DNA of 22,307 bases from a virus. This document shows positions 2,130-13,570 of this stretch, piece after piece. Position 1 is the first letter of the stretch. The number at the start of each line of letters is the position of its first letter. Where the stretch lies: positions 1 to 22,307 of the IMG/VR virus record IMGVR_UViG_3300020439_000090. One strand, written 5' to 3'. The notes under the pieces were generated by a model. That model was not told the origin of the DNA. It did not search any database and worked only from the letters and a program-made list of their open reading frames with translations. A program made the translations under genes and the position numbers.

Positions 2130-2201
2130 TTGACATATGAGTTAGTATCGATAGGAGTAAATCTATTGTTTTGGTTTGCTGTTTATCTGATGAATATTTG
2201 A
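2130..2201 (+). CDS. Possible 23-aa membrane peptide with TTG start
   Basis: A 23-residue frame with a TTG start reads (M)TYELVSIGVNLLFWFAVYLM-NI and is essentially one hydrophobic transmembrane helix. AGAAAGGA at 2113-2120 could serve as its ribosome-binding site with about 9 bases of spacing. Very short, non-ATG frames arise by chance, so this is only a possibility. Tiny membrane peptides do occur in phage early regions, and two similar ones sit at 10803-11041. Confidence 0.3.
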   Translation: MTYELVSIGVNLLFWFAVYLMNI

Positions 2202-2235
2202 TGAGCACTTGAAATTTGAAAGGAGATTTCTACGT

Positions 2236-2317
2236 AATACTTCTAGTACTACTGTAAGAATACTAATAGTCTTTTTATTCTTATAGAAAATAAAATACTA
2301 ATAGTACTAGAAGTATT
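2236..2317. repeat. Nested inverted repeat / long hairpin
   Basis: The outer arms AATACTTCTAGTACT (2236-2250) and AGTACTAGAAGTATT (2303-2317) are perfect 15-bp complements, extendable by one more A-T pair inward (2251/2302). Inside them a second stem pairs CTGTAAGAATA (2252-2262) with TATTCTTATAG (2276-2286), with one G-U in RNA, leaving a 13-base loop and a 15-base AT-only bulge on the right side. No T-run follows the outer arm, so it is not a typical intrinsic terminator. It could act as a cruciform at an origin or as an RNase III-type processing hairpin. Confidence 0.75.
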
Positions 2318-2327
2318 TACTAATAGT
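2262..2327 (+). repeat. Three direct copies of ACTAATAGT
   Basis: ACTAATAGT occurs at 2262-2270, 2297-2305 and 2319-2327, with start-to-start spacing of 35 and 22 bases. The first two copies share the longer match AATACTAATAGT. Copies one and two lie inside the nested hairpin and the third just outside it. Iterated short sequences in an AT-rich gap are typical of protein-binding sites or origin iterons. No binding protein can be named from the sequence. Confidence 0.6.
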
Positions 2328-2370
2328 GATATAACTACAGTGTCTCTGCATTTAATAAAAAGGAAAAGAA

Positions 2371-2595
2371 ATGACTGAAGAAAATATAGACTACACGCAG
2401 TATGACTTTGATGGTATAGAAACTATTGAAGAATACTTTGATAAGTTTTGGAACAACAGAGAAGCGATAGAACATTTAGTAAATTTATTTGTCGATCAGG
2501 TGTATGATCTTCAGGAGTTTATAAGTGATCGAGGTTTCAAGGAAGAGGAGTTTTTGGAATGGCAAAAGAAAAAGATGGAGAAGTTCTACCACTAG
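2371..2595 (+). CDS. Acidic helical hypothetical protein, 74 aa
   Basis: A 74-residue, strongly acidic and aromatic protein (MTEENIDYTQYDFDGIETIEEYFDKFW...), predicted to be mainly helical with a basic C-terminal tail (EWQKKKMEKFYH). AAAAAGGAAAAGAA directly upstream gives the start. It is the first gene after the hairpin patch. The charge pattern, an acidic body with a Lys-rich tail, is reminiscent of small DNA-mimic or host-binding phage proteins, but no family is recognised. Confidence 0.7.
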   Translation: MTEENIDYTQYDFDGIETIEEYFDKFWNNREAIEHLVNLFVDQVYDLQEFISDRGFKEEEFLEWQKKKMEKFYH

Positions 2596-3135: not shown

Positions 3136-3353
3136 ATTGGTTAATACTGGTGACCTTAACTTTTGGTGATTCGTTCTTAGTGTTTAACAAAGAGTTCGAA
3201 CATGAGAATGCTTGCGTTGAATACGTCAACAATCCTGACAATTATGATACACTAGCTATCGAAATAATAGCAGTCGCAGGATTCAATGACCCAGTGACGG
3301 ACATCATTTGTATCCCAGAGTATGAAGAATCAAAGGAAGGAATAGATGGATGA
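3132..3353 (+). CDS. Small exported two-cysteine protein, second copy, 73 aa
   Basis: A 73-residue protein. ATG 3132, coupled to the previous stop by ATGA, is chosen over the upstream in-frame ATG at 3108. It begins MNWLILVTLTFGDSFLVF, a hydrophobic leader, followed by 'F-x-x-E-x-x-x-A-C-V-E-Y-V' and a later Cys (DIICIPEYEE). The order of hydrophobic start, F-x-x-E-x-x-C-x-E and a second Cys repeats that of the gene before it, suggesting an old tandem duplication. Probably membrane-anchored or periplasmic. Role unknown. Confidence 0.65.
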   Translation: MNWLILVTLTFGDSFLVFNKEFEHENACVEYVNNPDNYDTLAIEIIAVAGFNDPVTDIICIPEYEESKEGIDG

Positions 3354-3667
3354 AATATGCAGTGATGATTGATGTAGATGGTGACTTGATTTATGTTCCA
3401 AATAGTTTTCCTGTTAAAACTATACATGATGATCCTAAATTATTTAATACCATCGAAGACGCTGAACAAGAGTGCAACAACTGGAACACTGGAACAGTCG
3501 TTGAGTATGTGACTAGTAAGGACATCAGACCGATGGATGAATCAGAAAGAAACAGAGCGAGGGTAAGGAGTATAAAAAACCAAAGTAACTTAGAGTTTGA
3601 CAAAGCTCTTAAAAAGTTGTACGAGGGTGATGATTGGGATAATTGGTGTGACGGAGATGCAACATGA
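3350..3667 (+). CDS. Conserved small phage protein, 105 aa
   Basis: A 105-residue protein beginning MKYAVMIDVDGDLIYVPNSF, followed by 'P-K-L-F-N-T-I-E-D-A-E-Q-E ... W-N-T-G-T-V-V-E-Y-V'. This layout (strand, strand, helix with 'T-x-E-x-A-E', strand ending V-V-E-Y-V) is one I recognise from many phage hypothetical proteins located near replication genes. Residues 61-105 are charged and helical. It is coupled at both ends by ATGA overlaps, to the exported protein before it and the primase-helicase after it, so it is probably co-translated with the replication genes. Confidence 0.75.
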   Translation: MKYAVMIDVDGDLIYVPNSFPVKTIHDDPKLFNTIEDAEQECNNWNTGTVVEYVTSKDIRPMDESERNRARVRSIKNQSNLEFDKALKKLYEGDDWDNWCDGDAT

Positions 3668-5286
3668 GCACAGCAGAAGACAAAAAGTTTGATATGGAGA
3701 GAGTAGCTTGCCCCTACAAAGAATGTGGCAGTTCGGATGGATTCTACTACAACACAGAAACCAAGTCAGGATTCTGTCATGTATGTGAAACCAAGACAGG
3801 AAAGGTGGGAAAATATCCTAGACCTAACTTCAGGAATGATATTGCTGAGTGGGCAGAGGAAACTTACCCAGTAAATGCAATGAAACCACCAGTTCATTTA
3901 AGACAGATAGACTCAGCAACCTACAAAGGTATTCGAGGATTAGATCAGGACGTATGTAAACTGTACAGCATACAGCTACAGATAGATGGTGAGGGAGATC
4001 CTGTCAGGTATGCTTTCAAGTATCCTTCCAATGTAAAGTATCGAGGCTTCGAAGAGAAGAAGTTTTGGACTGAGGAGAAGGGTGCATTGCTAGATCTTTT
4101 TGGCCCGGATTTTAATGCAGGATCTAGTAAGCGTATCTATTTGACAGAGGGTGAGTTCGATGCAGCTTCTCTCTATCAGGCACTAGGTAAAAGTTTCCCT
4201 GTTAAATCAATACCTTCTGCGTCACTGTCAGATAAGTTCATCAAAAGAAACTATGAGTATCTCAATTCTTTCCAAGAGATTGTGTACGCAGGTGAACAAG
4301 ATGAGGCAGGTAAAGGTGCAGCCACCAGACTCTACGAATTATTTCCTGAGAAGTTTTATTATGTGCCTCTGACTAAACACAAGGATGCTAATGCTTTCAT
4401 CGAGGCAGGTGACCAAGAGGATCTCAAGTGGGCTGCTGTTAAACCTCAGCGATTCTCACCAGATAATTTCTTTGTTGGTGACATCGAGGTAGAGAAAGCA
4501 ATCAAGACTGAGAATCCATATGAGTATGTTCCTACTGGTCACACTGGACTGGATGATAAGATCAGAGGTCTAGTTAAAGGTGGTCTGACTTTTATCAAGG
4601 CTCTTCGAGGACAGGGTAAGACAGAACTGATTCGATACTTCGAGGTTGGACTCCTGAAGTCTGACACCAAGATTGCTTTGCTTCACATGGAAGAGATGAA
4701 GTCTACAACGTATCGAGCAATGGCTACCTATCAGCTAGGCTGTAACGTCAGAACAAAAGAAGATGCTGCAGAGAATGGTGTCAGTGAAGACGAGGTTATT
4801 GATGCGGCAAAGGTAGCAGCACAAGATGACAAGACAATTATCTTTGAGATGCAAGCGCATGATGATCCTATGAAGCTACTCGACTATGTGAGACTTGCAG
4901 CTACAGTCTACGGTGCAAGCTATATCTTTATCGATCACGTACAGAGACTAGCTTACCTATCTAATGCAGGGGTTGAGGGTGCTACCAGTACACTGACAAC
5001 TCTTGGTGCTCGAATGGCACAGCTTGCCAAGGAACTAAACATTGGTGTGATCTTTATCTCGCAGGTCAATGACGATGGGCGTACCAAGTATGCTGCTTCC
5101 CTCGAAGAAGAAGCTATCGTCTGTGTCAAACTGAATCGTGATACAGAAGCTGAGGAAGAGATAGAGAGAAACACAACCTACTTTATCGTAGATAAGAATA
5201 GACCGTTTGCTAAGTTAGGTAATGCAGGTTCAGTCTACTATGATCCTGATACAACAATCCTAGAAGAGGTTTCTTACAGAGTATGA
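3664..5286 (+). CDS. T7 gp4-like DNA primase-helicase
   Basis: A 540-residue bifunctional enzyme: the N-terminal half makes RNA primers and the C-terminal half is a hexameric replicative helicase. The zinc-binding domain has C16, C21, C38, C41. The TOPRIM core follows, with the acidic 'TEGEFDAAS' (161-169) and 'GEQDEAGKGAA' (210-220), which corresponds to T7 'FDMDEAGRKAV'; here the first Asp of the DxD is Glu. The RecA-like helicase has Walker A 'ALRGQGKT' (313-320, Ala in place of the first Gly), Walker B 'YIFIDH' (420-425), the 'FISQ' strand (464-467) and the 'DDGRTKYAASLEEEA' loop (470-484). T7 gp4 is about 566 residues, so the length is normal. The ATG overlaps the preceding stop and the TGA overlaps the polymerase start. 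Confidence 0.95.
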   Translation: MSTAEDKKFDMERVACPYKECGSSDGFYYNTETKSGFCHVCETKTGKVGKYPRPNFRNDIAEWAEETYPVNAMKPPVHLRQIDSATYKGIRGLDQDVCKLYSIQLQIDGEGDPVRYAFKYPSNVKYRGFEEKKFWTEEKGALLDLFGPDFNAGSSKRIYLTEGEFDAASLYQALGKSFPVKSIPSASLSDKFIKRNYEYLNSFQEIVYAGEQDEAGKGAATRLYELFPEKFYYVPLTKHKDANAFIEAGDQEDLKWAAVKPQRFSPDNFFVGDIEVEKAIKTENPYEYVPTGHTGLDDKIRGLVKGGLTFIKALRGQGKTELIRYFEVGLLKSDTKIALLHMEEMKSTTYRAMATYQLGCNVRTKEDAAENGVSEDEVIDAAKVAAQDDKTIIFEMQAHDDPMKLLDYVRLAATVYGASYIFIDHVQRLAYLSNAGVEGATSTLTTLGARMAQLAKELNIGVIFISQVNDDGRTKYAASLEEEAIVCVKLNRDTEAEEEIERNTTYFIVDKNRPFAKLGNAGSVYYDPDTTILEEVSYRV

Positions 5287-12965: not shown

Positions 12966-13313
12966 ATGAGTAAGACTTGTGAACATTGTGGATACTTATT
13001 AGACGATGATAACCACTGTTATGAGTGCGAACAAAGACGTGAAGAAATTGGTAATCTTATAGACCTAGCAGGAAGAAAAGAGATAATGGATAAAAAGAAG
13101 TTTGATTCAGTAGACAAACCTATACACTACAATGCAGGTGGTATCGAAGCTATTGATGCTATCCTGGCTGCAACAAATGATTTAAGTGAAGGTTATTTAC
13201 AAGGTAACATTCTTAAATACGTGTGGAGATACAGGTACAAAAATCGTATAGAAGATTTAAAGAAAGCACGTTGGTATTTAAATAAGTTAATTGAGATCTA
13301 TGAGCATAAATAA
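12966..13313 (+). CDS. Zinc-ribbon plus DUF3310 (T7 gp1.7-type) protein
   Basis: A 115-residue two-part protein. Residues 5-21 form a small zinc ribbon (C5-x2-C8 ... C18-x2-C21). Residues about 48-112 match the DUF3310 family: 'VDKPIHYNAGGIEAIDAI', 'GYLQGNILKYVWRYRYKN' and 'EDLKKARWYLNKLIE'. T7 gp1.7, a dGMP/dTMP kinase, is associated with this type of domain, so a nucleotide-metabolism role beside RNR and MazG is reasonable but inferred. The N-terminal zinc ribbon is an addition not found in the shortest family members. AAAAAGGAAG precedes ATG 12966. Confidence 0.82.
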   Translation: MSKTCEHCGYLLDDDNHCYECEQRREEIGNLIDLAGRKEIMDKKKFDSVDKPIHYNAGGIEAIDAILAATNDLSEGYLQGNILKYVWRYRYKNRIEDLKKARWYLNKLIEIYEHK

Positions 13314-13518
13314 TAAAAGAAAAACCCTTGAGCAAGAAGCCCAAGAGTTTCTAATGAAAGGCAAAGAAGTTATTCCCCAAGGATCTATAAAGCTTGGGGA
13401 TTACTTTGCTGGATGCGCTCTGTCTGGTTTGATAGCATCTGGCAAGTACCTACGGTCTGACGAGATTGTGGATGAAGCTTACAAGTATCGAGACAGGATG
13501 CTTAAAGCCAATAAATAA
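13300..13518 (+). CDS. Small conserved phage protein, 72 aa
   Basis: A 72-residue protein. The first ATG is at 13300; a TTG nine bases earlier is in frame but not needed. It overlaps the preceding gene by 14 bases. The central block 'LGDYFAGCALSGLIASGKYL' followed by 'EAYKYRDRML' resembles a short helical protein seen repeatedly in phages ('D-Y-F-A-x-x-A-L-x-G-L-L-A ... A-Y-x-x-A-D-x-M-L'), of unknown function. It is the last plus-strand gene, ending about 20 bases before the convergent terminator. Confidence 0.75.
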   Translation: MSINNKRKTLEQEAQEFLMKGKEVIPQGSIKLGDYFAGCALSGLIASGKYLRSDEIVDEAYKYRDRMLKANK

Positions 13519-13535
13519 TAACACTCCCACAAACT

Positions 13536-13570
13536 AAACCCCTAGCTGATCACTAGGGGTTTTTCTTTTA
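13536..13570 (+). terminator. Intrinsic terminator between convergent blocks
   Basis: AAACCCCTAG (13536-13545) and CTAGGGGTTT (13553-13562) form a perfect 10-bp stem with a 7-base loop (CTGATCA), followed by TTCTTTTA: a textbook Rho-independent terminator for the plus-strand operon. Read on the minus strand, the same stem is followed by a weaker AGTTTGTGGG tract, so it may also partly end the late transcript, whose last gene stops only a few bases away (13568). Confidence 0.9.

Follow-up and report, generated by a model that had tools for sequence, protein, structure and literature searches.

The element at positions 2236 to 2327 of the window, by which we mean the whole 22,307-base virus record analysed here, is functional and regulatory and not a stray repeat. 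We put at roughly two in three the probability that it serves the replication operon as a promoter-operator array acting at the DNA level, has a counterpart at the late operon and is read by a dimeric protein that is probably encoded by the phage. The element consists of a lattice of short palindromic TACTNNNAGTA sites next to a putative promoter, and complete relatives of the window phage carry a second array of these sites upstream of the late operon. An array of this sort is known in kind, and it is unrecorded for these phages in the literature searched.

Gene layout around the element

The record is a fragment that ends short of its own late promoter. The primase encoded in it shares 91% identity with the primase of Roseobacter phage CRP-13 and 70% with that of CRP-9. 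These two isolates define the CRP-9-type group, in which the replication genes are Cobavirus-like and the structural genes HMO-2011-like (PMC8528129). Judged from its sequence, the window phage is a CRP-9-type roseophage, a marine bacteriophage. Genes run rightward from position 1 to about 13.5 kb and the structural genes run leftward; a strong intrinsic-terminator-like hairpin is found at 13536-13562 between the convergent replication and structural operons, and the GC skew changes sign there. An earlier, preliminary description of this DNA placed the element upstream of the replication module, and this is where it lies, the primase starting at 3664, downstream of it.

The first gene of the downstream replication operon (2371-2595, plus strand) begins shortly 3' of the right arm of the element and encodes 74 amino acids with no assigned function. 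It is preceded by a ribosome-binding-site-like AAGGA (2360-2364, plus strand), read from the sequence, and its homologues sit 3' of the array in CRP-13 (gp11), CRP-9, L082 and L083. The motif CTGCATTTA at 2347-2355, between the array and this gene, recurs near both arrays of CRP-13.

The element had been described as occupying the only real gap in an otherwise overlapping train of genes. The gap is indeed among the larger ones, but another of about 99 bp is present at 1031-1129, and the gap itself begins only at 2202 because its left part is filled by a micro-ORF (2130-2201, plus strand) that has a TTG start and is missing from the ORF list. This left neighbour of the element encodes a 23-amino-acid membrane-like peptide, MTYELVSIGVNLLFWFAVYLMNI, and a frame just 5' of the CRP-13 array, MPTYELISIGATIIFWFVVYLIYKKDE, matches it by eye. 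Unannotated micro-ORFs for a membrane-like peptide are also present in L086 (about 3309-3392) and L087 (about 5074-5146), just 5' of the promoter as in the window.

Palindromic sites in the window and in relatives

The repeats reported in the preliminary description were largely borne out. The outer inverted repeat, said to be perfect over 15-16 bp, is complementary at 16 of 16 positions (left arm 2236-2251 and right arm 2302-2317, both given on the plus strand), with the arms 50 nt apart, and a 16-bp arm was never obtained in 500 dinucleotide shuffles of the gap, the longest shuffled arm being 14. The 11-bp inner stem, formed by 2252-2262 and 2276-2286 of the plus strand, is present, but only 10 of its 11 pairs are Watson-Crick and the odd one is a G.U pair in RNA. 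The three direct repeats are exact copies of TACTAATAGT starting at 2261, 2296 and 2318. What had been called a nearly GC-free context is so only in the core of the element, and the 92-bp region as a whole has 21% GC.

Within these 92 bp lie five exact ACTNNNAGT sites, none assigned to a strand: the first is ACTTCTAGT (2239-2247), the second, third and fifth are ACTAATAGT (2262-2270, 2297-2305 and 2319-2327), and the fourth is ACTAGAAGT (2306-2314), the inverted partner of the first. A degenerate copy, ACTGTAAGA, is added by the site list at 2251-2259, again with no strand, and the two half-arrays are separated by the AT-rich core (2271-2296, no strand), in which 3 of 26 bases are G or C. Five sites were found in none of 2,000 dinucleotide shuffles of the 169-bp gap, and shuffles of the whole window never gave more than three sites per 92 bp. 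The number of motif copies is in other words beyond chance, and the lattice is found again in relatives.

A DNA similarity search with the element region gave no match among annotated phages at E 1e-5, and exact copies of the palindrome's right half are present in just two other viral contigs. The loci of relatives were fetched through the primase, and in many of them a comparable element stands a few kilobases 5' of that gene; removal of near-duplicates left 39 distinct elements, from relatives that are not independent, so that counts among them are not counts of independent events. The array stands at the same place in about 39 distinct relatives. Its arm sequences vary widely (for example, AATACTTCTAGTACTA, AGTATTACTAACAGT, ACTTAAAGTATTACT and GTTATACCTAAAGTAT), and the unit common to all elements is the palindrome (A)TACTNNNAGTA(T), i.e., TACTnnnAGTA, with a commonest spacing of 12-13 bp. 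Two half-arrays face each other around a core that is AT-rich in relatives as well, its sequence itself being loosely kept. A de novo search for clusters of palindromic 4+4 half-sites found nothing in cobaviruses and recovered TACTNNNAGTA in only some of the array-bearing genomes.

The putative promoter next to the array

The array is preceded by what is probably a sigma70-like promoter. In the window it is made up of a -35-like hexamer, TTGAAA (2209-2214, plus strand), followed after 16 nt by a -10-like hexamer, TACGTA (2231-2236, plus strand), which is a weak match to TATAAT and a point against the operator model. The -35 is TTGAMR (TTGAAA, TTGACA or TTGACG) in relatives, with invariant ACTTGA columns in the clade alignment, and 36 of the 39 relatives have it 5' of the array, compared to 4.1 expected under a base-shuffle null. 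The full match to TTGAMR-N16/17-TAnnT/W is present in 20 of the 39 (0.4 expected under the same null), and the hexamers at the matching -10 spacing are TATCTA in CRP-13 and TAACTA in CRP-9. The sites abut or overlap this promoter at fixed spacing, the first of them mostly beginning 27-31 nt behind the first base of the -35 and thus at or just after the -10. In the window, the predicted transcription start is close to position 2243 and falls within the left arm. The searched literature on these phages mentions no promoter.

Hairpin versus sites

The facing arms would also form a hairpin in RNA, and a regulatory RNA was one of the functions suggested in the preliminary description. The put sites of phage HK022 are leader RNA antiterminators just after two early promoters, and the present element resembles them in that two operons of opposite direction each have a hairpin-forming copy immediately behind their promoter. 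The leader transcript could then fold into a long hairpin that serves as an antiterminator like put, as a stabiliser or as a processing site heading each long operon. The predicted fold is strong, with z = -3.5 in the window and a mean sense z of -3.2 over 39 relatives, and the hairpin would lie just downstream of the promoters of two long operons. Moreover, when sites of the two half-arrays of the replication-side element are compared, their middle triplets are inverted matches of each other in 22 of 35 elements (11.9 expected), though the arm sequences differ between clades, while direct, non-inverted triplet matches are at chance, and perfect arms exceed a null that preserves the site skeleton in 27 of 39. 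Looked for in relatives, the palindrome is thus conserved and its arms change in a compensatory manner that keeps the helix, the exceptions being L005, L012 and L020.

Several observations nevertheless make a leader RNA unlikely. The antisense strand of the replication-side array folds as well as the sense strand (mean z of -3.0 versus -3.2), and at the late array the antisense folds better, the sense being more stable in only 4 of 14. In the window and in several relatives the left arm overlaps the -10 and the predicted start, so a transcript from this promoter would lack part of the outer hairpin; in some other phages one of the arms is located, by eye, within the -35/-10 spacer and would not be transcribed from that promoter at all. 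In L005, L012 and L020, which belong to the window's own clade, the sites are kept and the long outer hairpin is lost, the arms being no longer than under the null. Strand-neutral folding, the overlap of arm and promoter and the retention of sites without the hairpin together argue that the sites are primary and that the facing arms are an additional feature at the DNA level, and they set the element apart from put, which is an RNA structure. Rfam gave no match in the window.

The excess of matching across the arms is not needed by a simple operator model and speaks against it in that form. Matching arms of quasi-palindromes can arise by template-switch correction without selection, and the facing arms of the array could come partly from this process. 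They also suggest a foldback or a bridged conformation of the DNA that is secondary to the sites.

A stable stem between two genes is also what would be expected of an intrinsic terminator or attenuator separating the early from the replication genes. The preliminary description argued against an ordinary terminator on the grounds that no T-run follows the right outer arm, and we agree: the T-run is absent, the stem is AT-rich and there is no terminator call at the site, where an ordinary terminator would have a GC-rich stem and a T-run. The fold is also equally good on both strands and a promoter abuts the element, and we regard termination or attenuation here as very improbable.

A second array at the late operon

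The promoter-operator reading draws much of its weight from a second array. The two strongest site clusters in CRP-13 and CRP-9 are one on the replication side, at about 3.4 kb in CRP-13 and 5.2 kb in CRP-9, and one on the late side, at about 54.2 and 55.0 kb. The late clusters are non-coding TACTNNNAGTA arrays on the other strand, directly upstream of the first late gene and hence of the late operon (about 54199-54350 in CRP-13, MW514247; about 54974-55100 in CRP-9, MW514246), and that of CRP-13 is preceded by a perfect TTGACA-N16-TATAAT. The same pair of replication and late arrays was found in most of the long uncultured relatives scanned, which like the two isolates therefore have the sites at more than one promoter per genome. 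When viral contigs were scanned by the site pattern alone, at least 51 AT-rich intergenic arrays were obtained, and among the matches listed, 36 of 51 intergenic arrays had a homologue of the first late gene at most 300 bp downstream, compared to 0 of 28 clusters inside ORFs. A scan of bacterial genomes for prophages with the late module returned one MAG contig; this contig (L357, Blastopirellula) carries the late module and the array and is probably phage DNA binned into a bacterial genome.

The eight HMO-2011-type isolates have no TACTNNNAGTA arrays. In HMO-2011 (about 53219-53340) and CRP-1 (about 53214-53303) there is an array only at the homologous late promoter, and its unit, CACTN2-3AGTG, is related to but different from TACTNNNAGTA. 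This change of unit with the phage group would point to a phage-specific reader, and it makes a host-encoded reader less likely. Yet other repeats are present at the late promoter of CRP-2 and CRP-603.

Possible replication origin or attachment site

The primary replication origin of T7 consists of promoters followed by an AT-rich stretch, and the preliminary description proposed an origin for the present element as well. The lattice could be an iteron-like set of sites bound by an initiator protein of the phage, or DNA synthesis could be primed, as in T7, by a transcript that starts at the promoter and enters the AT-rich core, in which case the two arrays would be two origins. The likeness to T7 is that of a promoter and an AT-rich region upstream of a T7-like replication module, here with primase and a T7-type polymerase, and the lattice with its AT-rich core does have an iteron-like appearance. 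That no phage RNA polymerase was reported for the related cobaviruses CRP-4 and CRP-5 (PMC6918029) is also in favor of an origin.

We find this reading improbable on other grounds. The GC skew, which had been put forward as a check of the origin claim, has no inflection at the element; its cumulative extremes are at operon boundaries, and the cumulative minimum is at the record end, in the divergent region beside the late array, where it is confounded with gene direction. The AT skew at third positions falls gradually from the early to the replication genes with no flip at the element. No switch in strand composition was thus seen there, in a test made weak by its confounding with gene direction. 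The same array at a late promoter is not expected of an origin, and HMO-2011 and CRP-1 have the late array only. Since the array is repeated at the late promoter, neither an origin nor a leader RNA upstream of the replication genes is sufficient as an explanation. The element further differs from the T7 origin in its host-type rather than phage-type promoter, its iterated palindromic sites, its second copy at the late operon and its lack of a skew signal. The earlier proposal of an origin or regulatory element that is not a terminator therefore stands in part: conservation in relatives upholds a functional, regulatory and non-terminator element, whereas the skew, the strand-neutral fold and the late copy go against an origin or a leader RNA, and more of the observations are accounted for by a promoter-operator array.

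G018 and G020, where a tyrosine integrase gene lies downstream of the replication-side array, bring to mind an attachment site (attP) with arm-type integrase sites, as does G017, in which a tRNA-Arg-like sequence comes just after the array. We consider an attachment site extremely unlikely and largely refuted, because nine array-bearing CRP-9-type genomes (CRP-13, CRP-9 and G001-G007) lack a PF00589 integrase. Conversely, the eight HMO-2011-type isolates have an integrase and no such array, and the second array is at the late promoter, far from int. In the three uncultured phages with both an array and an integrase, the array heads the integrase operon, which fits a promoter-operator array equally well. 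The tRNA-Arg-like sequence of G017 is near 6380-6720 of L325, between the array and the integrase operon, and L227 and L262 have a similar tRNA-like start after the array.

Proposed control and candidate readers

In the promoter-operator model, a sigma70-type promoter (TTGAAA at 2209, TACGTA at 2231) would lead into a lattice of palindromic TACTNNNAGTA sites that a dimeric DNA-binding protein, probably of the phage itself, would occupy cooperatively. The bound protein may control whether host RNA polymerase starts or escapes. The overlap of the first site with the start point favors repression, relieved in the course of infection, over activation, and with the late operon having an array of these sites too, the timing of both operons could depend on one protein. 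A bolder version, which we hold to be doubtful, is that of a two-point timing switch shared by a wide set of marine phages, with an undescribed reader and a site that has diverged by group, in which the foldback, as a cruciform or a single-stranded hairpin, would be part of the switch and possibly of the start of replication.

No reader protein emerged from the analysis. Gene content was compared between 9 array-bearing and 12 other genomes, and no common HTH or RHH protein was found among the array-bearing ones. The sole family to track the arrays is a small one resembling CRP-13 gp34 (13300-13518 in the window), present in 8 of the 9 array-bearing genomes and in 0 of the 12 others. An AT-hook-like tail (PRGRPPKKK) is present in some members and absent from the window copy, and the family is not recognisably a transcription factor. 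The winged-helix protein gp06 of CRP-13 is accessory and carried by few relatives, and IS3-orfA-like HTH proteins are present only in G017, G018 and G020. The first late gene (gp74 family, 84 amino acids) is well conserved and adjoins the late array in many phages, making it a candidate, but its predicted fold (pLDDT 86) has no match among solved structures and weak ones to just two viral models.

Relation to known systems

The TACTNNNAGTA palindrome has been described as the operator of the archaeal winged-helix repressor TrmB at the malE promoter of Pyrococcus furiosus (PMC4158304), and a winged-helix regulator can therefore read such a site at a promoter. The likeness is an identical palindromic core, TACT-N3-AGTA, at a promoter (PMC4158304); the TrmB operator is, however, a single palindrome at an archaeal BRE/TATA box, whereas here at least five sites form a lattice at bacterial-type phage promoters. 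No TrmB homologue was found among the early proteins scanned. The operators and stoperators of L5-type mycobacteriophage immunity are asymmetric 13-mers scattered over the genome and bound by one phage protein (PMC9283540). They are similar to the present sites in that a phage genome has many copies of a short site, at promoters and between genes, for what would here too be one phage protein. They differ in being asymmetric and scattered, while the sites described here are palindromic and packed into two arrays at two promoters, in phages without an integrase.

HMO-2011-type phages and cobaviruses have been reported to be dominant groups among ocean phages (PMC8528129); CRP-9-type phages combine modules of both. 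The element provides a concrete control site, of defined motif, for their replication and late operons; it also connects phage groups with shared late modules and could be used as bait for isolating the regulator that times the infection cycle. Apart from the two arrays, the divergent region 5' of the early genes has several copies of a palindrome, GTTTAANNTTAAAC (L088:5660-5800, L089:6400-6560 and L176 near 5900), with TGTGATCACA in some phages, and these are possibly control sites of the early promoters.
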